From positions 124,001-188,000 of the forward strand of contig NZ_LGKO01000004.1 in assembly GCF_001306145.1 (NCBI RefSeq): a DNA stretch of 64,000 nucleotides, given 5' to 3'. The notes under the pieces are model-generated. The model searched no databases. It worked only from the letters and a program-made list of their open reading frames with translations, and was not told where the DNA came from. Below are positions 22,290 through 38,314 of the stretch, in pieces. The stretch is from Thermanaerothrix daxensis. GTDB lineage: Bacteria; Chloroflexota; Anaerolineae; Anaerolineales; Anaerolineaceae. The position numbers and the translations under genes are program-made. Each line of letters starts with the position of its first letter. The stretch's first letter is position 1.

Positions 22290-24534
22290 AGGGGGTGCTT
22301 ACCATCTCCCAGCGCACATCATACTCACAAATGGGATCACCGTTGTACACACAACGTGTCTTCCGAATGTAAGGTACCCCTCCTGCTGCCTCGATTACCC
22401 CTTCCATCCAACCCACATGGTTGTACGTGCACCGCTCGCGAGGCTGTTTCTTACCCATATCCACTTCCATGCGCACGTGGTTCTCCGCCAAATCGAAAAT
22501 CCGCACAATCACCCCATCGCCCCAGTTATGCCGCAGGCCCAAATCCATCCGGCGAATGATGTAACCTGGATCGCCGGGTTTGAAGTACTTTGCCAGAGCG
22601 GCACCTGGCTGAATATCGTATTTGGCCCGGTAACGCGTCATCTCACGCAGGATGTCATCCTTACCTCCCGCCAGGGTATCTTTAATGGCTGCCGTGAGTG
22701 CCCCCAGTACTTCAGGTGGATACTCCCCCTCGGGGTCTATTTTCCCACGTAGAATCTGCTGAACCTCAGCCGGCACCCGACTTATAACCTGATCCAGAGC
22801 AGCCTGTCCGTATTTCTCACGTACAAAATCCAATCGTCCAATTAAAGCACTTCCCCGGCTGACCTTTCCGCTCACCTGCTGGGTAACGATCCGGGCAATT
22901 TGTTGCTGCAAAAGGGTTGTTTGTTCACTCATCCGCTGGATAGATGATGTGACCGCCGCAACCTGGTCACGAATTTGTTCCGAAGCCTGTGCCACGTTGT
23001 TGAGCACACCCATATTTTGCTCACTGGCACCAACATAGGCACGGACAGTAGTGGTCACCTCCGCAGCACTGGCAGCAAGCTCCTCGGTGGCCGCTGTATT
23101 CTCTTCAACAACCGCGGAAACCGTTTCCATGGCGACCATCAGCCCACGAGTGGCTTCATGGATCTCGTCAGCAGCCTCAGAAATATCCTGGATCCTGCTT
23201 TCTACTTCTCCAATTCCCTTCAGAATGGCATCCAGTGCTTCACCCGCATGAAGGCTCTGTTGCACCCCTGCATCTATTTCTTTGCCTTGTTCCTGGATGG
23301 CCACCCCCATCTCGGATACTGACATCTGAATATCACGGATCAAGCCTGCAATTTCCTTGGTCGCCTGGACCGATTTCTCAGCCGGTTTGCGCACCTCATC
23401 GGCTACAACCGCAAACCCTTTCCCTTGCTCACCAGCGCGGGCAGCCTCTATGGCTGCATTAAGAGCCAGGAGATTCGTTTGAGCCGCCAATTCTTGGGTG
23501 GTTTCAAGGATGATCCCGATTTGCCGTGTGTTTTGCCCCACCCATTCAGCCTTCTCTTGCACATGCTGGGTGCTTTCTACAATTCGTCGCATGCGCTCAA
23601 TACTTTCCCCAATAACTTGCGAGCCACGCCGGGCTGAAACGGAGACCTCTCCAGTAACTTGTTCGGCTAGATGCGCTCGCTCCGCGACCACTTGAATCTT
23701 CTCTGTAATTTGTTGCATCCTTCGCGATGCCTCCGCCACGGCTTGGGCCTGCTCCTGGGCACCTTTACTCACTCCATTGATAGCCAGAGCCATTTGTTCA
23801 ATGGCCTGCAATGTGGCTCGCAAGCGCTCAATTTGCTCATTAGTCTGTTGGGCCACGTGATGTAGATTATCGCTAATTTCACGCGTTGCCTGACGCGTCT
23901 GATCAGCCGCGAAGGCAATGTTGCCATATTCGCGGCTGATCTGATCAATGTTCTGGGTCATCTTGCTAATGACTTCCCGCAGGGACTTCACCATCCTTAC
24001 CAGGGCTTGTCCAATGGCATCGTTTTCAGAACGTGCACCAATGTCTTGCGCCAGGTTGCCCCCGGCGATTTTCTCCGCAATCGAATTAATTTGCAACAAG
24101 TATTCCCGTATCTGACGCTGAGCCTGAAGCAAGTCTCGGATCTCATCCCAGCCCTCAATCGAACGGTTTTGCCCTAAATCCCCCTGCGACAGTTGAAGAG
24201 CCGATTCGGCCACAGATTGTATGGGCAACACAATGCGTTTGAGAGCCAGCAACAGCAAGAAATAAGCAGGCGCTACCGAAACCACCGCCAGTCCCAAACC
24301 TGCAAGGGTTAACCCTTGCTTCCCCAAAATAAAGCCCGCTGTTGCCGCCAACGATGTCATGCCCACCACAATGGCATTGAGACGAAGCGCTATACCCCGC
24401 CGGAAGACCAGATACACAATTCCTAACGTCAACAGCGCGACTAGCAAAATTAATCCTGCAAAAGTCAGCCCGTCCATCTGCGCCATTACTCCCTTGAATT
24501 CACCCCAGAACGCTGCCATGCACTCTTTTCCCAT
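22264..24534 (-). CDS. Methyl-accepting chemotaxis protein with C-terminal V4R-like domain
   Basis: The 756-residue protein has hydrophobic helices near 23-43, 52-72 and 78-98, a HAMP-like linker, and a long cytoplasmic coiled coil with the kinase-binding hairpin tip (about 350-390, [21 protein letters not shown]). Instead of a periplasmic sensor it has a C-terminal domain of about 190 residues ending in [17 protein letters not shown], resembling V4R/heme-NO-binding-like small-molecule domains. Just past the tip the usual VRKLAE reads VRKPAE (Pro384), which may affect signalling. No che genes are nearby. The ATG at 24534 is the longest start; an ATG five codons later is equally possible. Confidence 0.83.
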
Positions 24535-24629
24535 TGCGTTGATATTGGCGGCTCCACCTCAGCCATTTGTAATTTACCGATGGTCCCTTACCAAAATCGT
24601 AAATAGTGGCTAAAAACCCGATAAATTCC

Positions 24630-24666
24630 CAATTAAAATAAAAGGCGCCCTCTACCCGGGCGCCTT
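24630..24666 (-). terminator. Terminator of the branched-chain amino acid operon
   Basis: On the minus strand AAGGCGCCC and GGGCGCCTT form a nine-pair stem followed by TTTTATTTTAATT, a strong intrinsic terminator about 28 bp after the ilvE stop. Confidence 0.88.
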
Positions 24667-24693
24667 CGTTCAACCATTGCGCACGCAAACAGA

Positions 24694-25614
24694 CTACCCA
24701 TTTACATAACTCAGCCATTCCGCTGAGCGTGGATGTTCTCCTCTAACTACCTCTCGGAACGCCCTGGCTAAGGCGCGGGTCACCGGTCCGGCTTTGCCAT
24801 CGCCAATGATCCGGAAATCAATCTCCGTCACCGGTACCACTTCGGCCGCCGTTCCACACACAAACATTTCATCCGCAATATAAAGGTGATCCCGGCTAAT
24901 CTGCGTCTCCACTACCGGATAACCGAGATCCCTGGCCAGGACGATTAGCGAATCACGGGTAATGCCTTCCAAAACCGCCCAAGTTCCCGGCGTATAAATG
25001 ACCCCTTTGCGAACAATAAAGAGGTTTTCGCCCGTGCATTCCGCAACATATCCTTGGGGATCCAGCATAACTGCTTCATCAAAGCCCAATCGCACCGACT
25101 CGGTCTTAGCCAGCACGCTATTGGCATAGTTTCCAGTAACCTTGGCCTTGGTCATCATCACGTTGGGGTGGTGGCGAGTGTAGGACGAAACATTCATCCT
25201 CACCCCTTTTTCCTCGGAATCTTCTCCCAGATAAGCCCCCCACGCCCAGGCCGCAATGCCTACCCGCGCTACGCCGCTATCTAGATTCAGATCACGTTTC
25301 TCACTCTCGTGAAAGATCAGCGGACGGATATAACATGCCTGAAAACCGTTTGCCCGCACCACCTCTTTACACGCCTCCCCCAATTGATCAGCGGTAAAAG
25401 GCAGGGAGCGAAAGCCCAAAATTTTGGCCGAGTTGACCAGTCGCTCCATGTGCTCCTTCAACCGAAAGATGGCCGGACCGCGAGATGTGCTGTAGCAGCG
25501 AATCCCCTCAAACACCCCCAGCCCATAATGCAGGGCTGTGTTCAGAAAATGAACAGTGGCCTTCTCGTACTCAACGAGCTGGCCATCCAACCAGATGTAA
25601 CGTGACTCAGCCAT
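24694..25614 (-). CDS. ilvE: Branched-chain amino acid aminotransferase
   Basis: IlvE makes the last step to valine, leucine and isoleucine, transferring the amino group from glutamate to the 2-oxo acids. The 306-residue fold-type IV PLP enzyme shows the start IWLDGQLV, the segment HYGLGVFEGIRCY, the PLP lysine in the TKAKVTGNY region, and the phosphate-binding GITRDS and CGTAAEV motifs. I place the start at the ATG with GGAGGA seven bases upstream rather than five codons earlier. It is the last gene of the operon, 26 bp after leuB, and is followed by a strong terminator. Confidence 0.93.
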   Translation of the reverse strand: MAESRYIWLDGQLVEYEKATVHFLNTALHYGLGVFEGIRCYSTSRGPAIFRLKEHMERLVNSAKILGFRSLPFTADQLGEACKEVVRANGFQACYIRPLIFHESEKRDLNLDSGVARVGIAAWAWGAYLGEDSEEKGVRMNVSSYTRHHPNVMMTKAKVTGNYANSVLAKTESVRLGFDEAVMLDPQGYVAECTGENLFIVRKGVIYTPGTWAVLEGITRDSLIVLARDLGYPVVETQISRDHLYIADEMFVCGTAAEVVPVTEIDFRIIGDGKAGPVTRALARAFREVVRGEHPRSAEWLSYVNG

Positions 25615-25639
25615 AGATGATTCCTCCATATCTGAAAAG

Positions 25640-26701
25640 TTATCCTAACCGCTCAATGACCGCATCCGTCATCGCGGTTGTGCTCAACGACCCGCCCAAG
25701 TCTCGTGTACGGCATCCCTCCTCAATTGCACGATCCACTGCCCTTTCGATGGCTCGAGCTTCCTGTTCCAACCCCAATGAGTACCGCAACAGCATTGCCG
25801 CACTCAGAATGGTGCCAATAGGGTTGGCAATTCCCTGGCCTGCGATATCAGGAGCCGAGCCGTGAATGGGCTCATACAGCCCGCCGTGCTTCCCGTTCAA
25901 CGAAGCCGAGGGGAGCATTCCCATTGACCCCACAAGTACGGCAGCCTCATCGGTGAGAATATCCCCAAACATATTCTCGGTAACCACCACATCAAAAGAA
26001 TGGGGGGCACTGATCAAGCGCATGGCTGCGGTATCTACCAATACATGTTCCAGCAGAATGTCCGGATATCGCTGTGCAACCCGATTGGTAACTTCGCGCC
26101 ACAAGCGTGAAGATTCTAGCACATTCGCTTTGTCCACCGAACTCACTTTCTTCCGACGCTGACACGCCAGCCGGAATGCTAAATCCACAATGCGTTCGAT
26201 CTCGGTTTCGCTGTATTCCAGAGTGTCTACAGCATGGTACTGACCATTTACCCATTCGCGCTTCTTAGGTTGCCCAAAATAAAGCCCACCTGTCAATTCG
26301 CGCACAACGATCAAATCCACACCCTGAAGCCGATCCGGCTTTAGTGGAGAGGCTTCGATCAGTGCTGGGTGTACCCGAACCGGACGAAGGTTTGCAAACA
26401 CCCCTAAACCTCTGCGCAAACCCAAGAGCCCCTGCTCCGGACGCACGGAGGCTCGCGGATCATCCCATTTGGGCCCTCCAACCGCCCCCAATAGAACTGC
26501 ATCCGCTGTCCGGCAGGCTTCCAGCGTTGCCTCGGGTAGGGGATTCCCGGTCTGGTCAATGGCACATCCACCAATCAGATGTTCGGTGAACTTAAATGTG
26601 TGGCCAAAGCGTTGCCCGATTGCCTCCAAAACTCGCACCGCTGCACTCACAACCTCCGGACCAATGCCATCTCCTGGCAAGAGAACAATGTTAGCCTTCA
26701 T
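25640..26701 (-). CDS. leuB: 3-isopropylmalate dehydrogenase
   Basis: LeuB oxidises and decarboxylates 3-isopropylmalate to 2-oxoisocaproate with NAD; with a CimA pathway it can also act on 3-methylmalate. The 353-residue protein shows the family start [32 protein letters not shown], the substrate-loop [10 protein letters not shown], the DNMFGD-like metal site (here [12 protein letters not shown]) and the NAD-binding [14 protein letters not shown]. It overlaps the end of cimA by 11 bp, so translation is coupled. AGGAGA lies before the ATG. Confidence 0.95.
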
Positions 26702-28268
26702 GTGTCTTTCTCCTGCTCAATTCCCAGAGTCCATATTCCACAGAATCCGCCAATGCTAGCCAGGAAGCTTCAATGATATTAGTAGAAGCTCCCACCGTAC
26801 TCCACTGGCTCACCCCATTGCTGGTATCAATGAGCACACGTGTGGTTGCCATCGTGCCATGGTTTCCATCCAAGATACGCACCTTATAGTCCTTGAGATG
26901 GAAATGATCAATTTCAGGATAAAAGGGTCGCAGAGCCTTACGCAATGCCCGGTCCAGTGCATTGACCGGCCCGTTCCCATCCGCAGCAGTATGAATGACC
27001 TCACCGTTGACCCGCACTTTCACGGTGGCCTCTGCGATCATCCCGCGCCCTTGGCGATGTTCCACACTTGCCGTGAAGTCAATCAATTCAAACGGTGGCT
27101 GATAATCCGGCTGTCGGCGACGCAACATCATCACCACTGAGGCCTCGGCGGCCTCAAATGAGAACCCCTGAGCCTCCAACCCCTTGAGGTCTTTTAGCGC
27201 CGAACTCACATCAAACTGTTCATCCAGGTTCAGTCCATACTCTTCTGCCTTGCTGAGCAAATTGCCTCGCCCTGATAGTTCTGAGACCACCACCCGACTG
27301 CGGTTGCCCACCAATTCTGGATCAATGTGCTGATAAGAGCGAGAAGTGCGCCGCATGGCGGCTACGTGGATGCCACCTTTATGGGCAAATGCGGCCCGGC
27401 CAACATAAGGGAGGTGCTCATCCGGCGCAAGGTTGGCCACCTCCGCCACATAGTGCGAAAGTTCGGTCAGTTTTGCCAGGTGCCCTTCGGGGAGGGCTTT
27501 GAGCCCCATTTTTAATTCCAAATCGGGGATGATCGAACAGAGATTTGCATTTCCACAACGCTCACCGTAACCGTTGATCGTGCCCTGCACCTGAATACAC
27601 CCCTCACGCACCGCTACCAACGAGTTCGCCACCGCGCACTCGCTATCGTTGTGAGCATGAATACCCAATTGGGCTGCGGGGAAGTGTTTCCGAACTGTCC
27701 GTACAATCTCACCCACCTCCCAGGGTAGTGTGCCTCCGTTGGTATCGCAAAGCACCAGCGTTTCAGCACCTCCCCGCAAGGCTGCCTCTAGGGTCTGAAG
27801 GGCGTAGTTTGCATCCTCTTTGTAGCCATCGAAGAAGTGCTCGGCATCGTAAATAACTTTGCGCCCGTTTTGAACCAGGTAAGCCACACTCTCTTCGATC
27901 ATCCGAAGGTTATTTTGCGGTGTCGTTCGAATGACCTCATGCACATGCAGAAGTGAGGATTTGCCCACAACCGCACAATAGGGGGTCTGCGCATCCAACA
28001 ACGCCCGAATGTTCTCATCCTCGTGCGCGCGCTTTTCTGCCGCGCAGGTCATTCCAAACGCTACAATCTTGGCATGACGCCATTCCATTTTGGCAGCCCG
28101 GCGAAAGAACTCAGCATCTTTTGGGTTAGATCCAGGCCATCCCCCCTCAATAAACGCCACGCCCAGATCATCCAAGCGCCGTGCGATGTTCAATTTATCA
28201 TCCACAGAGAACGAGATATCGGTCCGCTGGGAGCCATCTCTCAAGGTGGTATCATAGATCTGGATCAT
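26691..28268 (-). CDS. cimA: (R)-citramalate synthase
   Basis: CimA condenses pyruvate and acetyl-CoA to citramalate, giving 2-oxobutyrate for isoleucine without threonine deaminase. The 525-residue protein belongs to the DRE-TIM group: [10 protein letters not shown] at the N-terminus, a metal-binding HAHND motif and [10 protein letters not shown]. The longer [19 protein letters not shown] and [13 protein letters not shown] segments are typical of CimA rather than leuA, and a C-terminal LeuA-type allosteric domain is present (about 400-525). A separate leuA in the same operon supports the division of labour. It follows leuD by about 14 bp. Confidence 0.92.
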
Positions 28269-28282
28269 GGCCGCAACTCCCT

Positions 28283-28873
28283 CTACCTGGTAAGATATCT
28301 GGACTCAAAAGCCGCAATTTCAGGTTCTAAACTGAGCAAATAGCCGAGTTCGTCAACACCGCGTAATAAACAGTCTTTTGAAAATGGGTCAATGGGGAAC
28401 TGCACCTCTCGGTCAAGCCAGCGCAGAGTTTGGGTTTCAAGATCAATCGTCAACGTCTGAGCCGGGTCTTGCAGGAAAAGGCGCATTAAATCCTGGTGCA
28501 CCTCGGGCGATACAATCACCGGTAGCAAACCGTTTTTGAGCGCATTATTGCGGAAGATATCCGCAAATGATGTGGAAATCACGGCGCGAAAGCCCCAGCC
28601 CAACAAAGCCCAGGCAGCGTGTTCGCGCGAGGAGCCACACCCAAAGTTATCGCCCGTCAGAAGGATCTGAGCTCCCTGGCTTTCGGGGCGATTCAAGACA
28701 AACGCGGGATCAGGTTGCCCATCGGCAAGGTAACGCCAATCTGCAAAAAGGCTGGCTCCCAGACCATGTTTATCTGTGGTTTTCAAGAAACGGGCTGGGA
28801 TGATCTGGTCGGTATCGATGTTATCCACCGGTAACACCACAACCCGCGAGGTCAAACACTTAAAGGCTTCCAT
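28283..28873 (-). CDS. leuD: 3-isopropylmalate dehydratase small subunit
   Basis: With LeuC this isomerises 2- to 3-isopropylmalate (and probably citramalate to 3-methylmalate). The 196-residue swivel-domain protein shows [15 protein letters not shown] near the N-terminus and [13 protein letters not shown], both diagnostic. The ATG follows AGGAGG by a rather long spacer of eleven bases; the alternative ATG nearer the ribosome site is in another frame and stops at once. It lies 15 bp after leuC. Confidence 0.94.
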
Positions 28874-28888
28874 AGGTCTTCATACCTC

Positions 28889-30316
28889 CTAGAGCAAGGT
28901 ACGGGGATCGGTAATCACACCATTAATGGCCGTTGCCGCTGCCGTGAGCGGACTGGCTAAGAAAGTGCGCCCGCCTCGCCCCTGCCGTCCTTCGAAATTT
29001 CGATTGCTGGTACTCACGGCATATTGTCCTGGCGCTAGGGCATCCCCGTTCATTGCAATGCACATTGAACAGCCCGGCTCGCGCCACTCTGCTCCGGCCT
29101 CCTTGAAAATACGATCTAGACCTTCAGCTTCAGCCGCCCGTTTGACCTGCTGAGAACCCGGTACAACCAGAACCCGCACATTGGGAGCCACCTTGCGACC
29201 TTTAATCAGGCTGGCCGCTTGGCGCAAATCCGTCAACCGCCCGTTGGTGCACGATCCGATAAAAACCACATCCACTGGATGCCCCAGTAAGGGCTCACCG
29301 GGGCGCAATCCCATGTACGCCAATGCCTTCTCTAGAGCGGCTCGCTGAGCCGGATCGGTTATTGCGTCTGGATCGGGAATGCGGCCAGTGATGGGCATCC
29401 CCATTCCTGGGTTTGTGCCGTAGGTAATCATTGGCTCCAAACGGCTCACATCCAGGGTGACCACTTTATCGTAAACCGCTTCCTCATCACTGGGCAGTGT
29501 GCGCCAATCAGCCAAGGCTTTTTCCCAGGCAGCCCCCTGGGGAGCAAAGGGGCGTCCTGCCAGATATTCAAACGTGACATCATCAGGGGCTACCATACCC
29601 GCCCGCGCCCCAGCCTCTATGGACATGTTACACAAAGTCATGCGCTCCTCCATAGAAAGCGCACGCACCGCCGGGCCGGCATACTCCAGAACGTGTCCCG
29701 TGCCCCCACCTGTGCCAATCTGGGCAATAAGCGCCAGTATCATATCCTTGGCGGTTACCCCTTTGCCCGGGTAGCCCTCCATGTTCACTAAACAGGTCTT
29801 AGGGCGACGCTGTAGCAGGCATTGCGTAGCGAGAACATGCTCAACCTCGCTGGTGCCAATTCCAAAAGCCAGAGCCCCAAAAGCCCCATGGGTAGAGGTA
29901 TGGCTATCCCCACAGACAATGGTCAAACCCGGTTGGGTTAACCCCAATTCCGGTCCCACAACGTGCACAATACCCTGATAGGGACTATCTAACCCCATTA
30001 GCTGAATGCCAAATTCACGGCAGTTTTCCTCCAACTGACGGATCTGCCGCCGGCTCATTTCATCGGCAAACGCCAACCGCCCTTCAGGTCGTCCATCCGG
30101 CGATGGAATTGTGGGTACACCATGATCCACCGTTGCGAAGGTACGTTCTGGTCGCCGGACCCGCAACCCCTTTTCACGCAGAGCGCTAAATGCCTGGGGG
30201 GAAGTTACCTCATGAATAAGATGCAGGTCTATATAAAGCACTGCGGGTGACTGGGGAGGTTCTACGACAACGTGTCGCTCCCAGATTTTTTCAAACAGCG
30301 TCTTTGGGGTCATCAT
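28889..30316 (-). CDS. leuC: 3-isopropylmalate dehydratase large subunit
   Basis: This aconitase-family catalytic subunit carries a [4Fe-4S] cluster. Landmarks in the 475 residues are [27 protein letters not shown], the cluster cysteine in FIGSCTNGR and the paired cysteines in [11 protein letters not shown]. The start overlaps the preceding 71-codon gene by 26 bp in another frame, so its translation is probably coupled to that small gene; no independent ribosome site is clear. Confidence 0.95.
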
Positions 30317-30506
30317 AGGCGTCTACACTCGATGTGAAGGATTGTTCAAAGGCCGTGCCATTCATGTCCGCCATGCTATTCAGCGGATGGGGTGGATTTA
30401 GGTAGGCGCTCATATCCCACCGCCCCGGAATGGTGCGGGGCATATCAAACCAATGGCGATAACCCGTTGGACCGGGATTCTCAGAACTTACACGTCGCGG
30501 ATTCAT
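30291..30506 (-). CDS. Small conserved-looking gene between leuA and leuC
   Basis: The 71-residue frame has an excellent ribosome site (AAAGGAGGAATGAC before the ATG) and ends inside the first codons of leuC, an arrangement typical of translational coupling. The product is proline- and acidic-rich (starting [20 protein letters not shown]), without cysteines, membrane helices or a domain I recognise. It sits exactly between leuA (stop at 30540) and leuC. It may be a small protein of the leucine pathway or serve mainly to load ribosomes onto leuC. Confidence 0.62.
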
Positions 30507-30539
30507 GTCATTCCTCCTTTGGCAAATGGCTTGGAAATC

Positions 30540-32162
30540 CTAACCGACCGTTTCGGCCGAAGGTCGTTCTACAGGGCCGTACTGACCACTGGCCACCAAC
30601 AATTTGTTCAACGCCGAAAGGTACGCCTTAGCGCTGGCGACTACTATGTCTGTATCTGCTCCATACCCGCCAAACGTACGCGGGTGGTCAACCGCCTCAT
30701 CCCCGTCGCTGGGCAAGTACCCTTCACCGGCTTCAATCCGAACCGTTACCTCGCCCAGCGCATCTATCCCTTCAGTGACTGCATGAATGACGAACTCTTG
30801 TAGAACGTTTGGCGCCCCAATGATCGCATCAATGGCCTTGTAGGTTGCATCCACCGGTCCGGTCCCAATAGCTGCCTGGACGCGCAAGCGCCCCTCCGGA
30901 TCACGTAAACGCACCGTGGCAGTGGGCATTCCCATCGTACCGCAGGTTACCTGCAGGCCATCCAGAGCAAACAACTCGCGAGGCTGGTAGAGTTCATCCG
31001 AAACCAGCGCTTCCAGATCGGCATCTGTGATGACCTTCTTACGATCCGCCAGATGTTTGAACCTTGCAAAAATCTGATCCAGTTCCTCGTCGCTCAATTG
31101 ATAACCCAACGAAGCCAGACGCGCACGCAAAGCATGGCGGCCGGAATGCTTGCCAAGTACCAGACGCGTTTGGGGCACGCCTACAGTTTCCGGACGGATG
31201 ATCTCGTAGGTCATGCTGTGTTTGAGCATCCCATCCTGGTGAATTCCCGCCTCATGAGCAAAGGCATTTGCCCCTACAATGGCCTTATTGGGCTGAACTG
31301 GGATGCCAGTGTAATTGCTAACCAGTTTACTCACCCGATAAATCTGGGTCGTATCAATCCCCGTGCGCAGGTTATAAAACTGCCGTCGGGTATACAGAGC
31401 CATTACGACCTCTTCCAGCGCGGTGTTTCCGGCACGTTCCCCAATCCCATTTATGGTCACTTCTGCCTGTCGAGCCCCTGCCCGTAAGCCGGCCAGCGTG
31501 TTAGCCGTAGCCAGCCCCAGGTCATTGTGACAGTGCACCGAAACAATACAATTCTCAATTCCCGGCGTATTACGAATGATGCCCGCAATCAGCGCCCCAA
31601 ATTCTTCCGGGGTTGTGTAGCCCACCGTGTCCGGTATATTCAGCGTAGTGGCTCCGGCTTGAATAGCTTCTCCTAGCACATAGTAAAGAAACTCCGGATC
31701 ACTACGCCCGGCATCCTCGGGGCTGAATTCCACATCTGGGCACAACTGACGCGCGTAAGCCACCATTTCGCGTACCCGCTGCACAACCTCTTCACGCGTC
31801 ATGCGTAACTTGTACTTCATGTGAATTTCAGAGGTGGCCAGGAAAACATGAATGCGTGGCTTGGCGGCATGACGCACTGCCTCCCAGGCCTTATCAATGT
31901 CATTGACCGAAGCACGCGCCAACCCGCATATTACCGGTGTCTTTCCGTTGTAGTCAGCATTGCCCACCTCTATGGCGATGCGACGCACTGCTTCCAGGTC
32001 ATCGGGAGAAGCCGCCGGGAAACCGGCTTCAATAATGTCTACGCCCAACGAAGCCAGTGCCCGTGCAACCTCTAACTTTTCCGCACTGGTCATGGTCGCA
32101 CCGGGGGATTGCTCGCCATCACGTAACGTGGTATCGAAAATACGAACATAATCATCATTCAT
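30540..32162 (-). CDS. leuA: 2-isopropylmalate synthase
   Basis: LeuA condenses 2-oxoisovalerate with acetyl-CoA, the committed step to leucine. The 540-residue long form has the DRE-TIM motif [16 protein letters not shown], metal ligands in [24 protein letters not shown], and a C-terminal regulatory domain (about 400-530) for leucine feedback. GGAGGTG precedes the ATG. It lies 21 bp after ilvC and 34 bp before the small gene upstream of leuC. Confidence 0.95.
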
Positions 32163-32183
32163 TCGACACCTCCATTTGATTCG

Positions 32184-33269
32184 CTATGCCGAGGCAGTGG
32201 TTTCAGCCTGTTTTTCCGCAGCGTTCCAATTCTCAGGACGCAACGAACGCACTTTGGCTCCGGCCCGCCACATCTCGGACTCCCGCATCTCGCGCAATTC
32301 AGCCTCCAGTTTCTCCTTGTAATCTGGGGCACTGTTCGCCTTTAAGACGATTCGTGTCTCCTCCCCAGAGACCACCGACTGATAAAGACGTTCAAAAACT
32401 GGCAAAGTCACGCGACGGAACTCATGGCGCCAATCCAAAGCCCCACGCTGCGCCGTGGTGGAACAGTTAGCATACATCCAATCCATACCATGCTCCGCCA
32501 CCAGGCGGATCAGGCTTTGCGTGAGTTCCTCAACCGTTTCATTGAAGGCTTCAGAGGGCGAATGCCCATGGGCACGCAGGACTTGATATTGGGCCTCCAT
32601 AATCCCCGCCAGAGCGCCCATCAACACCCCACGCTCCCCAGTCAAATCGCTATAAACCTCATGCTCAAAGGTGGTTTCAAAGAGGTAACCCGAACCAATT
32701 GCGATACCCAAAGCCAGCGTGCGCTCGCGTGCGCGCCCGGTGTAGTCCTGCGCTACCGCAAACGAAGCGTTGATGCCACTACCAGCCAAGAAGTTAGCCC
32801 GCACGCTGGTGCCCGAACCCTTTGGCGCCACCATAATCACATCTACATAGGGCGGTGGTACGACCCCGGTCTGATCCTTATAAACAACGGAGAACCCATG
32901 CGAGAAATAAAGTGCATTACCGGGCTTCAGGCAAGGTTCAATTTTGGGCCACATTTGCTTTTGGGCGGCATCTGAAACCAGATACTGGACGATGGTCCCG
33001 CGCTCGGCGGCTTCCTCCAGGGAGAAGAGGGTTTCGCCGGGCACCCAGCCATCCTTCTGGGCCTTTTCCCAAGACCGCCCACCCGGCCGCACTCCCACAA
33101 TGACCTGTATGCCGTTGTCTCGCATGTTTAGGGACTGTGCCATTCCCTGCACCCCGTATCCCAACACGGCTACTACTTCATCCTTTAAAACCTCACGCGC
33201 TTTTTCTAGAGGGAACTCCTCACGAGTAACTACTTCTTCCAGAACACCTGCAAAATCCATTTTGGCCAT
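32184..33269 (-). CDS. ilvC: Ketol-acid reductoisomerase, fungal/Ilv5-like type
   Basis: IlvC isomerises and reduces acetolactate or acetohydroxybutyrate with NADPH. The 361-residue protein (start at the ATG behind AGGAGG; longer frames run back into the gap) has GYGVQGMAQSLNMRDNG, YFSHGFSVVYKD, VAPKGSGTSVR, the metal-site glutamates in GERGVLMG and SPSEAFNETVEE, and NCSTTAQRGALDW. These segments follow the pattern of yeast mitochondrial Ilv5, not the short bacterial IlvC (about 330 residues). The C-terminal RKLRPEN-like tail (here RSLRPENW) agrees. It is embedded in a normal bacterial operon between ilvH and leuA. Confidence 0.92.
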   Translation of the reverse strand: MAKMDFAGVLEEVVTREEFPLEKAREVLKDEVVAVLGYGVQGMAQSLNMRDNGIQVIVGVRPGGRSWEKAQKDGWVPGETLFSLEEAAERGTIVQYLVSDAAQKQMWPKIEPCLKPGNALYFSHGFSVVYKDQTGVVPPPYVDVIMVAPKGSGTSVRANFLAGSGINASFAVAQDYTGRARERTLALGIAIGSGYLFETTFEHEVYSDLTGERGVLMGALAGIMEAQYQVLRAHGHSPSEAFNETVEELTQSLIRLVAEHGMDWMYANCSTTAQRGALDWRHEFRRVTLPVFERLYQSVVSGEETRIVLKANSAPDYKEKLEAELREMRESEMWRAGAKVRSLRPENWNAAEKQAETTASA

Positions 33270-33300
33270 ATGAATACCTCCTGAAGTCTTTGAAGAAAAT

Positions 33301-33831
33301 TTATTCAGAGTATGCCAGCGCAGTGTGGTAACCATTGCCATTAGCGTACAAGGGCATGTTCCCGCGCGCCATGCTGACCACACCCGTACGGACCATCTCA
33401 ATAATCCCAATCGGGCGGAGCACCTCTAAAAATCCCTCAATTTTTTCTTCATCTCCGGTGATCTCAACAATCATGGAGTCCGTGGCCACATCCACCACAT
33501 GAGCCCGGAACACCTCAACGATTTGCATGACATGCCCGCGGTTTTCCGGCGTCGCCCTTACCTTGATCAAGGCCAGGTCTCGGGTAACCTTGGGCACCGA
33601 GGTTAGGTCGGATACCTGAATGACGTTGATGAGCTTATAGAGATATGCCGTTAAGCGTTCCGCGTTGACATTGTCACTATCCACCACAATCGTCATGCGC
33701 GAAATTCCCGGTTGTTCGGTATGCCCCACCGTCAGTGACTCAATGTTGAAGTTGCGCCGTCGGAACAAAGACGCCACTCGATTCAGCACCCCTGGTTTAT
33801 CCTCCACCAATGCCACAATAATGTGTTGCAT
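33301..33831 (-). CDS. ilvH: Acetolactate synthase small (regulatory) subunit
   Basis: This 176-residue subunit binds valine through its ACT domain and activates IlvB. The ACT start HIIVALVEDKPGVLNRVASLF is clear, followed by the second domain ending in a VVSMARG segment. I place the start at the ATG with GGAGGG six bases upstream; an in-frame TTG lies six codons earlier. It starts 14 bp after the ilvB stop and precedes ilvC by about 31 bp. Confidence 0.94.
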   Translation of the reverse strand: MQHIIVALVEDKPGVLNRVASLFRRRNFNIESLTVGHTEQPGISRMTIVVDSDNVNAERLTAYLYKLINVIQVSDLTSVPKVTRDLALIKVRATPENRGHVMQIVEVFRAHVVDVATDSMIVEITGDEEKIEGFLEVLRPIGIIEMVRTGVVSMARGNMPLYANGNGYHTALAYSE

Positions 33832-33845
33832 CGCGCCCTCCCCAA

Positions 33846-35567
33846 TCAAATCTCGTCTTCTGCCGTCTCAATCATGCGGTTGACCAATGGCCGCCGGATC
33901 ATGGCATGCAGATCGGCACCAGCGGGTACCATCGGGTACACGTTGTCCTCCTGCTCTACCCTGAAATCAATCACTACAGTGCCCTCTATTTCGCGAGCAC
34001 GCTGCAAGGCCGCATCCACTTCATCCCGAGAAGTGACCCGCAGACCAGCCAGACCGTGAGCCTCAGCAAGTTTCACAAAGTCGGGGCTACGCATGGGAGT
34101 GGCCGCATAGCGTCGCTCGTAGAAAAGCTCTTGCCACTGACGCACCATGCCCAGATAGCCATTATTGATGATCGCCACATTGACCTTCACACCCTCCTGA
34201 GCCGCGGTTGAGAGTTCGGCGGCGGTCATCTGGAAACCCCCATCACCTACAACCGCCCAAACCTCCGCATCGGGGCAGGCGATTTTTGCCCCAATGGCCG
34301 CAGGCAACCCAAACCCCATGGTTCCCAGTCCTCCCGAGGTAATGAACCGGTTGGGATGATCCTGTTTGTAATATTGCGCTGCCCACATCTGATGCTGACC
34401 TACGTCGGTCACTACAATGGCATTACCCTGCGTAAAGCGCCATAACGCATCAATTACATGGGCTGCGTAGAGTTTTCCATTTTCCGGCACCAGTTTGAGG
34501 ATATCCTCATCTTCCGCCTCACGGCGCAGTGATGCAATATGCTCCAACCAATCTGCATGTTCCAGGTTCGGCGTTTCTTCCAGCAATAGGCATAGGGCTT
34601 CACGAAGGTCGCCTATCACTGAAACATCTACCTTGACGTTCTTATTGAGTTCCGTGGGATCAATATCCACATGAATCTTGCGCGCACCAGTTGCATAGGT
34701 TTTGACATTGCCGGTTACCCGGTCATCAAAGCGCATACCAAAAGCCAGCAGCAGATCGGCCTCCTGAATGGCCTGGTTGACCCACGCTTGCCCGTGCATT
34801 CCCATCATGCCTAGATTCAGCGGATGAGAAGCTGGAAAGCCACCGATTCCCAAGAGAGTCATCGCCACTGGAATTTGTGTCTGCTCGGCAAAAGCGCGCA
34901 ATTCCTCTGTTGCACGGCTGAGCAGCACCCCCCGACCCGCTAAAATCAGAGGGCGCTTAGCCTCACGGATCAACTGGGCGGCCTGGGCGATTCGAGCCCG
35001 ATCGGGAATCCGATAAGGACGATACCCACGCAACTGAATCGGTTTGGGATCGTAGGTCCAATCTGTGCTATTTTGCTGCGCATCCTTGGCGATATCCACC
35101 AACACCGGGCCAGGGCGACCGGTGCGTGCAATGTAAAACGCCTCCCGCAACACTGGGCCGACATCTTCTACCCGAGTGACCAGGTAATTGTGCTTGGTAA
35201 TAGGGAGCGTAATCCCCGTCACATCTGTTTCTTGAAATGCATCGTAACCGATCAAATGACTGGCAACCTGCCCGGTAATAAAAACTGTGGGCGATGAATC
35301 CATCATTGCAGTTGCGATCCCGGTGACGAGGTTTGTGGCACCCGGACCGGAGGTTGCCAACGCGACTCCCACCTTACCGCTCGCCCGAGCATACCCGTCC
35401 GCCATGTGCGCTGCACCCTGCTCATGTCGCACTAAAACATGGCGAACCGGATAGTCTAGCATGGCATCATAAATCGGCAGGTTCGCTCCTCCCGGATAAC
35501 CGAAGACAACTTCCACCCCCTCACGCACCAACACTTCCCACACAATTTGTGCACCCGTCCGTTTCAT
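33846..35567 (-). CDS. ilvB: Acetolactate synthase large (catalytic) subunit
   Basis: IlvB is a thiamine-diphosphate enzyme joining two pyruvates, or pyruvate and 2-oxobutyrate. In the 573 residues the catalytic Glu lies in [20 protein letters not shown], and the ThDP/Mg motif [19 protein letters not shown] and [12 protein letters not shown] follow near 440-480. [14 protein letters not shown] is the family signature. AAGGAGGAGC precedes the ATG. It lies 36 bp after ilvD. Confidence 0.96.
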
Positions 35568-35603
35568 CGCTGCTCCTCCTTCGACAAAGCCATTCCACTG
35601 ATA

Positions 35604-37280
35604 TCAGACGCCGGGGTATTCCAACACGGCGCCTCGATCCGCACCACTCACAAAATAGGCATACCGCTTTAACCACCTGCTGTTTGTGCGCGGCTCGAAA
35701 GGTGGCAAAGCCTCAAGCCGTTGCCGAATCTCCTCATCGCTTAAACGCACGTTTAGCGTGTGGGCATCCAAATCAATCTCAATAATGTCGCCTTGACGCA
35801 AGGCTGCAATCGGCCCACGCGCAGCCGCCTCGGGAGCCACATGGCCCACGCAGGCGCCTCGCGTTCCTCCGGAAAAACGACCATCGGTGATCAGAGCTAC
35901 TTTGTCACCCAACCCCATTCCCATAATTGCGCTGGTGGGGCTAAGCATTTCCTGCATTCCCGGCCCACCTCGGGGGCCCTCATAACGGATCACTACCACC
36001 TCGCCAGGCTGAACCTCCCGAGCCAGGATGCCGCGCAGCGCATCCTCTTGGGATTCATAAATCCGTGCTGGCCCGCTGAAACGGCGCATACCAGGTAGGA
36101 CACCTGCTGTCTTCACCACGGAGCCACGTGGAGCGAGATTGCCAAAGAGAATGGCCAGTCCACCCGTTTGAGAATGCGCGTTTTCACAGCGACGAATTAC
36201 TTCCTCGTCTTTGATCTCGGCCCCATTTAACGCATCCCCCAGGGTGGTACCGGTGACCGTGATGCGATCCAGGTGCAGCAAACCGGTACCACGATGCACC
36301 TCCTTGAGAATGGCCGGCACACCACCAGCGCGATGGACATCCTCCATGTGCCAGGGGCCTGAGGGGCTAACCTTGCACAGATGAGGCACCCTGGCTGAAA
36401 TCGTATTGATGCGTTCCAACGAATAATCCAACCCGGCCTCATGAGCAATTGCCAACCCATGCAGGAGGGTATTGGTGGACCCTCCCATAGCCATATCCAG
36501 TACAAAGGCATCATCCAGGGCCTCTAAAGTGACAATGTCACGGGGCTTAATCTGCCGCCGCACTAATTCAATAATTAAGTGCCCCGCGCGCCGCGCTAGT
36601 GCCTCACGCTCAGAGGTCAGCGCCAGCGCCGAACCGTTGTAAGGCAATGCCAGCCCCAAAGCCTCCATCAAGCAGTTCATGCTATTGGCAGTGAACATCC
36701 CCGAGCACGAGCCGCAAGAAGGGCAGGCATAATCTTCAAGGGATTTCAAGCGCTTCTGATCAATCTTTCCCGCCTGATAAGCCCCAACCCCCTCAAACAC
36801 CGAGATGAGATCCACTACCTCGCCTTCGGGCGTGCGCCCGGCCGCCATTGGACCACCGGAAACGAAGATGGTGGGGATATTTAACCGCACGGCCGCCATA
36901 AGCATGCCGGGGACGATTTTGTCACAATTGGGAATGCAAACCATACCATCAAACTGATGGGCTTCGATCATGGTTTCCACAGAGTCGGCAATCAGTTCCC
37001 GCGAGGGAAGGGAGTATTTCATCCCTGCATGTCCCATGGCAATGCCATCATCTACTGCAATGGTGTTGAACTCAAACGGCACTCCGCCAGCCTGACGAAC
37101 GGCTTCCTTGACAATCCGTGCAAATGCTTGCAAGTGAACGTGACCCGGTACGATATCGGCATAAGAATTGACAATGGCAATAAACGGTTTATCAAAATCC
37201 TCGTCCTTTACCCCCGTGGCTTTCAGTAATGCCCGATGCGGCGCGTGTTCTATGCCTCTTTTTACCTGATCTGATCGCAT
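35604..37280 (-). CDS. ilvD: Dihydroxy-acid dehydratase
   Basis: IlvD dehydrates dihydroxy acids to the 2-oxo acids of valine and isoleucine, using an Fe-S cluster. About 558 residues, with the cluster cysteines in [10 protein letters not shown] and [18 protein letters not shown], and a C-terminal GRFSGGTRG. It is the first structural gene of the operon, directly downstream of the attenuator. GGAGGAG lies six bases before a GTG and nine before the ATG at 37280; either could be used. Confidence 0.95.
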
Positions 37281-37303
37281 CACCGGTCTCCTCCGTGCTG
37301 GTA

Positions 37304-37329
37304 TAAAAAAACCGCCCTTGCGGGCGGTT
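37304..37329 (-). terminator. Attenuator terminator of the ilv-leu operon
   Basis: On the minus strand AACCGCCC-GCAA-GGGCGGTT is followed by seven T residues, just before ilvD. Its 5' arm can instead pair with ten bases inside the leader peptide gene, so this is a regulated terminator. Confidence 0.88.
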
Positions 37330-37459
37330 GGTATGTACTTTGGTCTGGGTTTGCGTAAGGGTTTAGGCTAGTTCCACTTCGCTCGCTCCAACCGCCCAAA
37401 AGGGAGCCAGGCTCTCAATAAGGACGAGAACCAGAATAAGGCTAAGGGCGAGGAGCGAG
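37322..37459 (-). promoter_or_regulatory. Attenuation region: mutually exclusive RNA stems 1:2, 2:3 and 3:4
   Basis: Reading the RNA, segment 1 is CTCGCTCC (37459-37452), segment 2 is GGGCGGTTGG plus GGAGCGAG (37397-37382), segment 3 is CCAACCGCCC (37331-37322) and segment 4 is GGGCGGTT in the terminator. Segment 2 pairs perfectly with segment 1 (eight bases) or with segment 3 (ten bases). The Leu/Ile/Val codon run lies on and just after segment 1, so stalled ribosomes would free segment 2 to pair with segment 3 and block the terminator. Confidence 0.8.
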
Positions 37460-37473
37460 TAAATGTAAGACAT
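37363..37473 (-). CDS. Leader peptide of the ilv-leu operon (attenuator)
   Basis: A 36-codon frame starting ATG-TCT-TAC-ATT and ending GCC-TAA encodes a peptide in which residues 7-19 ([13 protein letters not shown]) contain eleven Leu, Ile or Val residues out of thirteen. It starts about 30 bp after the predicted transcription start and ends about 35 bp before the terminator hairpin in front of ilvD. There is no good ribosome site. Composition, position and overlap with the alternative RNA stems identify it as a branched-chain leader peptide like ivbL/ilvL of enterobacteria. Confidence 0.82.
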
Positions 37474-37510
37474 TTTTGACCGAATGGGTTCTTTTAGAAG
37501 TTATTGCGCA

Positions 37511-37538
37511 ATTCTATACACCATCGAGAATTTGTCAA
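37511..37538 (-). promoter_or_regulatory. Promoter of the ilv-leu operon
   Basis: On the minus strand a consensus TTGACA (37538-37533) and TAGAAT (37516-37511) are 16 bp apart, predicting a start near 37504, about 30 bp before the leader peptide ATG. Confidence 0.78.
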
Positions 37539-37601
37539 GAGGTTAAATCTTAAAAAATCCTGATTATCAGAGGAGATTTACCATCCGCTGGTATTTGCGA
37601 G

Positions 37602-37607
37602 TATACT
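37602..37607 (+). promoter_or_regulatory. Likely -10 element of the SGNH hydrolase gene
   Basis: TATACT lies 18 bp after TTACCA (37578-37583) and 17 bp before the gene's ATG, with the ribosome site GAGGT in between. The -35 is only a partial match. Confidence 0.4.
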
Positions 37608-37624
37608 TGAGCCACGAGGTAACA

Positions 37625-38314
37625 ATGTGGTTTAATGTGATCATTTCTTCCCTACTTGTCATTACACTGATCTACTTGATGCTGGCACGCATGGCCGCCG
37701 AACGATTGGCACGCACGCATCACGAACAAAAGTGCGATTTTTTTGCCCACCATCCGGTTCAGAAAGGAGATATAGTCTTTCTGGGGGATAGCATCACCGA
37801 CGGCGCCCGTTGGGATGAGTTGTTTCCGGGCCTCCCTGTAAAAAACCGGGGGATTAATGCCGACACAACCCGTGGCGTGCTAGCACGCCTGGATAGCATC
37901 CTTCCCGGACAGCCGGCTGCAATTTTTCTACTGATTGGCACAAACGACCTGCCCTGGTTTATGTTCCGCAGCGACCACGACATTCTCGAAACCTATGCTG
38001 CCATTTTAGAACGTTGCCGAAGGGAAAGTCCATCCACCCAGATATTCGTCCAGTCAATTCTTCCACGTGCTCGCGGCTATGCGAAACGCATTCAGCGCTT
38101 GAATGTTGAACTCGAAAAACTGGCCCGGCGTTTTGGTTATCCGTTCGTTAATCTCTTCCCTCACTTCGCTGATCGCGAAGGCCAGATTCGTCCTGAGCTT
38201 TCCAATGACCGACTCCACCTAATGGCTATTGGGTACGATCTTTGGGTTGAACAAATTAAGCCGCTGATCGCCAACCTGAGCCCCACAACCCTGGTGGAAG
38301 AGGTTACTTCTTAG
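37625..38314 (+). CDS. Membrane-anchored SGNH/GDSL hydrolase
   Basis: The 229-residue protein starts with one hydrophobic helix (about residues 3-22), so it is probably exported and anchored. The SGNH blocks are visible: Ser in FLGDSITDG, Gly in NRGINADTT, Asn in IGTNDLPW and the Asp-x-x-His pair in SNDRLHLMAIGY. Such enzymes are esterases, lysophospholipases or acetyl-hydrolases acting on lipids or glycans; the substrate cannot be told. I chose the ATG with GAGGT four bases upstream over a longer frame. It is divergent from the ilv-leu operon. Confidence 0.85.
   Translation: MWFNVIISSLLVITLIYLMLARMAAERLARTHHEQKCDFFAHHPVQKGDIVFLGDSITDGARWDELFPGLPVKNRGINADTTRGVLARLDSILPGQPAAIFLLIGTNDLPWFMFRSDHDILETYAAILERCRRESPSTQIFVQSILPRARGYAKRIQRLNVELEKLARRFGYPFVNLFPHFADREGQIRPELSNDRLHLMAIGYDLWVEQIKPLIANLSPTTLVEEVTS

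Follow-up and report, generated by a model that had tools for sequence, protein, structure and literature searches.

A very probable ribosome-mediated attenuator sensing leucine, isoleucine and valine upstream of the ilv-leu operon of Thermanaerothrix daxensis, and its relatives in Chloroflexota

The region upstream of ilvD in Thermanaerothrix daxensis is, in our opinion, very probably a classical ribosome-mediated transcription attenuator that senses leucine, isoleucine, and valine. It lies on the minus strand of the 64,000-nucleotide stretch of DNA analysed here (the window), ahead of a ten-gene biosynthetic operon. An earlier note on this DNA had read the region in the same way, and that reading is now supported by the anatomy of the leader, its conservation, tests of its pairings, a simulated folding switch, and the correspondence between leader codons and pathway.

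The leader is preceded by a promoter-like site with the -35 element TTGACA (37533-37538) and the -10 element TAGAAT (37511-37516; both minus strand, as are all features of the leader and operon below), separated by a 16-nt spacer. Both elements were read from the sequence and recovered by a promoter scan, in which this site was the top scorer (11/12) among the 8 promoter-like sites of positions 24300-37700, a count no higher than in shuffles. Sites scoring at least 9/12 are found no more than 100 nt 5' of 107 of 131 related leaders, the control, 100 nt taken from within the downstream gene, giving 1 case; the median distance from the -10 element to the leader start is 27 nt. The leader peptide ORF, which has homologous ORFs in relatives, consists of 36 codons and a TAA (37363-37473), its ATG being located 190 nt 5' of the ilvD start. 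Eleven of the 13 residues at positions 7-19 are Leu, Ile, or Val; the sequence and the ribosome simulation described below mark these codons (37417-37455) as regulatory. In 37 of 38 representative leaders the run contains all three amino acids, and 127 of 132 leaders begin with ATG.

None of the motifs GGAG, GAGG, and AGGA occurs 4-16 nt 5' of the window leader ATG. Because a Shine-Dalgarno core is rare before leaders (16 of 132, absent in 116) and usual before ilvD (82 of 100 starts), the missing ribosome site appears to be common to the leader family; among representatives only, the core precedes 9 of 38 leaders versus 20 of 27 ilvD starts. It should be noted that the missing motif is a point counted against the attenuation reading. 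Shared as it is, it makes the family a natural test case for translation initiation on attenuator leaders.

The pairing segments are arranged as in a textbook attenuator, with one addition. Segment 1 (CTCGCTCCTCGCCC, 37446-37459) is supported by partner-swap and synonymous-shuffle tests, and the internal hairpin P (GGTTCTCG..TGAGAGCC, codons 14-22, 37410-37432) by synonymous shuffles; segments 2 (GGGCGGTTGGAGCGAG, 37382-37397) and 3 (CCAACCGCCC, 37322-37331) were read from the sequence. The 1:2 pairing has 8 pairs (CTCGCTCC/GGAGCGAG) and, after a bulge, 5 more (CGCCC/GGGCG), 13 in total; 2:3 consists of 10 perfect pairs (CCAACCGCCC/GGGCGGTTGG), to which segment 2 contributes positions 37388-37397. 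The 3:4 hairpin (AACCGCCC-GCAA-GGGCGGTT) together with its U run constitutes an intrinsic terminator (37305-37329), recognised by a terminator scan and by covarying columns in 28 leaders, with 7 T, 2 of them inside the stem; its end is 26 nt from the ilvD start. The 201-nt leader folds with -63.8 kcal/mol compared with -47.3 (sd 3.9) for shuffles (z -4.2), and none of 200 shuffles folds as well. The stretch scanned has 13 terminator-like sites, a count not above that of shuffles, and just two of those on the minus strand have at least 6 G-C pairs, namely the attenuator and a hairpin 3' of ilvE (24641-24667), which is terminator-like by consensus match only. Thus, the TTGACA/TAGAAT promoter, the 36-codon leader whose residues 7-19 are eleven-thirteenths Leu/Ile/Val, the lack of a clear ribosome site, the eight-base 1:2 pairing, the perfect ten-base 2:3 pairing, and the terminator with seven U, all claimed in the earlier note, are borne out by our recount, with the additions that 1:2 extends past a bulge and that two of the seven U belong to the stem.

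The first structural gene, ilvD (35604-37283; NCBIfam TIGR00110 and NF002068), is followed by ilvB (33846-35567; TIGR00118), ilvN (33301-33849; TIGR00119), ilvC (32184-33410; TIGR00465), leuA (30540-32162; TIGR00973), leuC (28889-30316; TIGR00170), leuD (28283-28873; TIGR00171), the citramalate synthase gene cimA (26691-28268; TIGR00977), leuB (25640-26701; TIGR00169), and ilvE (24694-25629; TIGR01122), all matching above cut-off. The operon ilvDBNC-leuACD-cimA-leuB-ilvE thus spans 37283-24694, approximately 12.6 kb and ten genes, presumably in one transcript; the previously described 12-kb ilv-leu-cim operon had the gene content right, and its last gene is ilvE. By its gene content, the operon is predicted to make leucine, valine, and, via citramalate, isoleucine, and these end products are the three residues of the leader run. 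Between leuA and leuC there is a further ORF (30291-30506, minus strand), 71 codons long, which has a good ribosome site (AAAGGAGG).

These features suggest the following sequence of events. RNA polymerase would start approximately 30 nt 5' of the leader ATG, judging from the -10 element, and a ribosome would begin the leader peptide without a Shine-Dalgarno motif. Immediately ahead of segment 2, hairpin P may detain the polymerase, giving the ribosome time to draw level. A shortage of charged Leu-, Ile-, or Val-tRNA would stall the ribosome in codons 7-19, where it would cover segment 1; segment 2 would then pair with segment 3, and transcription would continue through ilvD-ilvE. If Leu, Ile, and Val are plentiful, the ribosome would move over segment 2, 3:4 would form, and transcription would end at about 37305. 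We infer leader translation, stalling, pausing, and the change in termination from sequence features.

Simulation of the ribosome on the leader, its leading edge being placed 13 nt 3' of the first nucleotide of the codon in the A site, reproduces such a switch for the window. The probability of 2:3 is 0.90-1.00 with the ribosome at codons 3-20, except for 0.56 at codon 12, and the probability of 3:4 is 0.90-0.95 at codon 2, at codons 21-37 (37 being the stop), or without a ribosome. The Leu/Ile/Val run, codons 7-19, lies within the 2:3 zone and ends one codon short of its edge. In the model, the choice between 2:3 and 3:4 in the window clearly depends on where in the regulatory codons the ribosome sits. 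In relatives, the equilibrium fold with the full terminator places 2:3 ahead in only 5 of 38 leaders with the ribosome in the first half of the run, and in 6 of 38 with it in the second, the stems in this folding also counting A-U pairs with the U run. Because this fold is uninformative for most relatives, folding stopped at segment 4 was also run. When folding is stopped as segment 4 starts, the mean probability of 2:3 over the 38 leaders is approximately 0.74 through the run, falls from 15 codons after the first residue of the run, and is down to 0 at 23. Taken leader by leader, the probability within the run is above 0.5 in 33 of 38 (the mean in the run being at or below 0.5 in 5), and at the stop codon in none of the 38, segment 4 not yet being made. 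Without a ribosome, 2:3 exceeds 0.5 before segment 4 is made in 17 of 38 leaders; termination without translation is therefore not clear in all. Since equilibrium favours 3:4 even with a stalled ribosome, antitermination in most relatives must be kinetic, and the choice between 2:3 and 3:4 in the modelled relatives would accordingly be a kinetic decision.

Hairpin P, located between segments 1 and 2, is formed by the last regulatory codons and often by codons for E-S, E-N, or K-D. A hairpin of -4 kcal/mol or lower is found at this position in 114 of 132 leaders and is absent at that cut-off in 18. The distance between P and the pyrimidine that precedes GG in segment 2 is 11 nt in 61 of the 114, 10-12 nt in 85, and 12 nt in the window; a review places the paused RNA 3' end 11-12 nt from a pause hairpin (PMC12288461). 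P may therefore resemble a pause hairpin. Nevertheless, a pausing role stays a proposal: the leaders share a common ancestry, and pyrimidine-G occurs as often at offsets 7 (54/114) and 16 (48) as at 11 (47). Because P separates a possible pausing role from 1:2, ribosome-polymerase synchronisation is testable here by mutation.

The attenuators of enterobacterial ilvGMEDA and leuABCD likewise combine a Leu/Ile/Val leader peptide with 1:2, 2:3, and 3:4 pairings, and their pause hairpin is 1:2; the window differs in belonging to another phylum and in having a separate hairpin between segments 1 and 2. Comparison with other systems follows the accessible portions of the papers cited in this paragraph. 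Listeria monocytogenes Rli60, located before ilvD, is similar in its branched-chain-residue-rich leader peptide, its terminator/antiterminator switch, and its ilv-leu operon with ilvD, and attenuation was shown there by mutants and reporters; unlike that of the window, its 13-residue peptide has a ribosome binding site, and the portions in question mention no P-like internal hairpin (PMC5864092). The ilvD attenuator of S. aureus, for which a T-box was first tested as an alternative, also has an Ile/Leu-rich leader (26 residues) and a terminator before an ilv-leu operon, but it has a putative ribosome site, and its predicted antiterminator pairs with the poly-U tail, leaving the terminator stem intact, whereas the window uses 2:3; leader peptides of this kind are named there for E. 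coli and Salmonella (PMC5794164). Actinobacterial ilvB leaders are similar in their terminators and in their short ORFs, which contain runs of Ile, Val, and Leu, and differ in that the runs overlap the terminator hairpins; in S. coelicolor, substituting possible regulatory codons had no effect (PMC1262725). A 2010 survey stated that, as far as its authors knew, leader-peptide systems had been demonstrated in no phyla other than Proteobacteria and Actinobacteria, and added Firmicutes (PMC2965389); in a survey of leader genes, Chloroflexi figure only as a taxon represented by few genomes (PMC4833913). Among the open-access papers listed on attenuation in Chloroflexi, Chloroflexota, or Anaerolineae, none reported this system, a search that does not establish its absence from print. 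Thus, the mechanism is known, being classical attenuation, and it is its occurrence in Chloroflexota for which we found no open-access report; the present results would extend ribosome-mediated attenuation to one class of this phylum and to some members beyond.

The conservation of the leader was assessed in 61 genomes, including that of the window, 34 of which match the N-terminal part of the window ilvD. A Leu/Ile/Val-rich ORF and a terminator are found 5' of ilvD in 26 of 30 loci, the window included, and at a 27th locus (L030) the leader sits further upstream (L221). Of the three remaining, L027 begins at a contig end, an ilvC-like gene (by eye) precedes ilvD in L026, and L028 has a divergent ilvD (49% identity). 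The 26 loci hold 28 leaders, two being in tandem in each of L011 and L025. Tandem units of leader and terminator before ilvD were seen in at least L011, L025, L130, L137, L195, L216, L225, and L236. The L006, L008, and L010 loci contain ORFs of 42-63 residues between attenuator and ilvD, with similar C-termini that carry A(L/M).D.YN(N/G) at most a few residues after a W.

A covariance model built on the 28 leaders and covering only hairpin P and 3:4 was then applied more broadly. At E <= 0.001 it has hits in 240 of the 400 genomes from the order, in 163 of the 298 from the class (147 of the 163 outside the order), and in 53 of the 301 from the phylum (27 of the 53 outside the class, including 5 at E <= 1e-6), tallies that are somewhat inflated because some matches weaker than about 1e-5 are chance, as appears to be the case for L157, L158, L162, L240, L242, L243, and L245. 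Twenty-five class and phylum loci among the best-scoring were inspected; L271, L284, and L287, near contig ends, were left out, and all 22 readable loci have a Leu/Ile/Val-rich ORF, 17 of them preceding ilvD or ilvB, as judged by the N-terminus of the next gene, and one a leuC-like gene. The window genome has one convincing site only, the runner-up having an E of 0.06. Among genomes without a close ilvD, the good matches in G009 and G011 are transporter leaders; G008 has transporter leaders as well, and ilvD leaders occur elsewhere in its genus.

For the tests of pairing, 174 leader candidates were reduced to 146 by discarding those that shared more than 85% identity or did not fit a simple pattern of Leu/Ile/Val, and then to 132 by discarding 6 ORFs that were in the wrong frame or due to chance, together with 8 leaders whose targets were transporters, ilvE, or other genes; 38 representatives no more than 70% identical were taken from these. 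L140, L173, L222, L232, and L233 contain a leader by eye, failed the strict terminator rule, and are uncounted. Because the 132 leaders were picked for a Leu/Ile/Val ORF and a terminator, many of them from matches of the P and 3:4 model, the set is no test of these two features.

Covariation of the three stems in related genomes had been suggested in the earlier note as a check, and register shifts blurred the MAFFT column counts for P; for this reason, partner-swap and synonymous-shuffle tests were used. In the 38 representatives, the mean energy of 2:3 is -24.1 kcal/mol with its own partner versus -19.7 with swapped partners (z -7.7), and that of 1:2 is -28.5 versus -21.9 (z -10.7). None of 5000 permutations, which ignore relatedness, reaches the observed mean for either pairing; with P excluded, 1:2 gives z -9.0. 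Moreover, synonymous codon shuffles within each leader, which preserve the peptide and its codon make-up, weaken P in 35 of 38 leaders, 1:2 in 36, 2:3 in 34 (z<0), and 1:2 without P in 32. The paired columns of 3:4 covary in the first 28 leaders, with 23 G-C to 5 A-T in one pair of columns and 16 G-C, 11 A-T, and 1 T-A in a second. The suggested check thus favours all three stems, and the contrary outcome named alongside it, retention of ilvD with loss of the leader codons or stems, was not observed, 26 of 30 loci and L221 keeping the leader.

These results also bear on the possibility that the leader acts on ilvD translation or on Rho-dependent termination instead of through an intrinsic terminator, as the position of ilvD just 26 nt past the terminator stem might suggest. 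However, the 3:4 stem has a U run and is maintained by compensating changes, the terminator lies more than 150 nt 5' of ilvD in 6 of the first 28 leaders, and an extra small ORF separates the two in L006, L008, and L010. We consider this explanation very unlikely.

Another line of evidence for attenuation by a translating ribosome comes from leaders located before other genes. Such leaders were found in the family of the window by the 28-leader model and by a second covariance model, based on 16 transporter leaders, which has hits in 52 of 147 genomes (E <= 1e-6), ilv leaders accounting for some of the sites. Twenty-seven leaders, some closely related to each other, precede genes for lipoprotein-type substrate-binding (Liv-type) proteins (L144-L147, L149, L151, L154, L160, L161, L163, L165, L241, and 15 more); these genes were recognised by their start, and Pfam, run on four (L144, L146, L149, L163), identifies Peripla_BP_6. 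Residues 5-24 of these leaders contain on average 7.9 Leu/Ile/Val and 6.6 Met/Phe/Tyr/Trp (minimum 4), compared with a mean of 1.18 Met/Phe/Tyr/Trp in the 132 branched-chain leaders, none of which has 5 or more. L322, L332, L335, and L336 were noticed but stand outside the transporter count. In one genome, a mostly-Ile leader precedes a cimA-like gene and a Leu/Val leader precedes an ilvB-like gene (L327, L328), and in L155 and L159 leaders precede class IV aminotransferase (ilvE-like) genes. A Thr/Met/Ile-rich leader (L244:139-222; ..TATTMMIAMTTMTMVM.., with an upstream ATG) is found before an aspartokinase-like amino-acid kinase, and a Tyr-rich leader with the same terminator type (L239:127-231; MKQLFPYYRYYHYYYSCF...) before a beta-eliminating lyase, by its start of the tryptophanase or tyrosine phenol-lyase type. 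The apparent tracking of gene function by codon content is, in our opinion, the strongest evidence that the leader ORFs are sensors.

Hydrophobic-residue-rich leaders are also seen before ECF-like S-component genes (L153, L156, L164, L238, L329, L337, L339). No terminator was found in L337, which was left out of the count; the other six are mixed, with 5-7 Met/Phe/Tyr/Trp in four and 1 in two. The L153 S-component, the one tested with Pfam, scores below its cut-off (28.2 vs 30.7 bits); an ABC ATPase gene comes next. The leaders suggest that the substrate of these transporters is related to amino acids.

We lean slightly towards the view that these leaders constitute a Chloroflexota attenuator family in which regulatory codons have been retargeted gene by gene (Leu/Ile/Val for ilvD and ilvB, mostly Ile for the cimA-like gene, Thr/Met for the aspartokinase-like gene, Tyr for the lyase, and a pool of Ile/Leu/Val with Met/Phe/Tyr/Trp for Liv-type and some ECF-like transporters), while the chassis has been kept: an ORF mostly without a Shine-Dalgarno motif, a pause-like hairpin P, and segments 2-3-4. 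The family would be common in one class and extend beyond it. If this is true, the pooled leaders would sense the whole hydrophobic amino-acid class together, and leader codons would predict the substrates of poorly known transporters from sequence alone.

An alternative is that the operon is controlled by a T-box or by some other riboswitch that binds a tRNA or a ligand, the Leu/Ile/Val ORF being incidental. T-boxes do occur in this group: matches are present in all 41 genomes searched (E <= 0.001; 33 over cut-off), and the window genome has 8 at E <= 0.001, the six listed being on other contigs. At the ilvD site itself, a T-box (RF00230) is rejected, staying below the Rfam threshold in the window and in ten related loci, in agreement with the earlier statement that the operon is not controlled in this way. 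No Rfam family reaches threshold in these sequences, and at E <= 10 the attenuator site has only four chance-like matches (two sRNAs, a CRISPR repeat, and RNAI). Moreover, the leader ORF and its Leu/Ile/Val run are conserved, and codon content shifts with the target gene. A riboswitch therefore seems highly improbable. Because these genomes use T-boxes too, the attenuator reading bears on when lineages choose an attenuator or a T-box; in Dehalococcoides, according to the accessible text of the source, T-boxes are associated with the ile tRNA ligase and tryptophan genes, not with ilv (PMC2494555).

The choice of synonymous codons in the leaders is also skewed. CTT accounts for 41% of Leu codons in leaders versus 6% in downstream genes, ATT for 74% versus 32% of Ile codons, and codons ending in a pyrimidine for 1582 of 2123 versus 5481 of 10073 Leu/Ile/Val codons. 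Either rare-codon sensing or structure avoidance could explain this skew. That the terminator merely insulates the operon from upstream transcription, the ORF encoding a small membrane peptide for which it is by eye hydrophobic enough, has hardly any probability, since the upstream ORF (37595-38314) is divergent, with the promoter between that ORF and the leader, and since a peptide function needs neither the pairing constraint on synonymous positions nor the skew of Leu and Ile codons.

The 28-leader model was also compared with 80 named ilvD loci. Of the seven titled Chloroflexi or Anaerolineae, only four (L031, L032, L041, L051) have a match before ilvD, and three (L035, L037, L044) have none there, which counts against the attenuator reading. 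Other named loci gave no convincing match, the best being L104 (19.6 bits) and L100 (19.1 bits). In L100, from Labilibaculum, which we take to be a member of Bacteroidota, two weak matches (19.1 and 12.2 bits) lie directly 5' of ilvD (L100:2628-2936) and possibly represent an unrelated attenuator.
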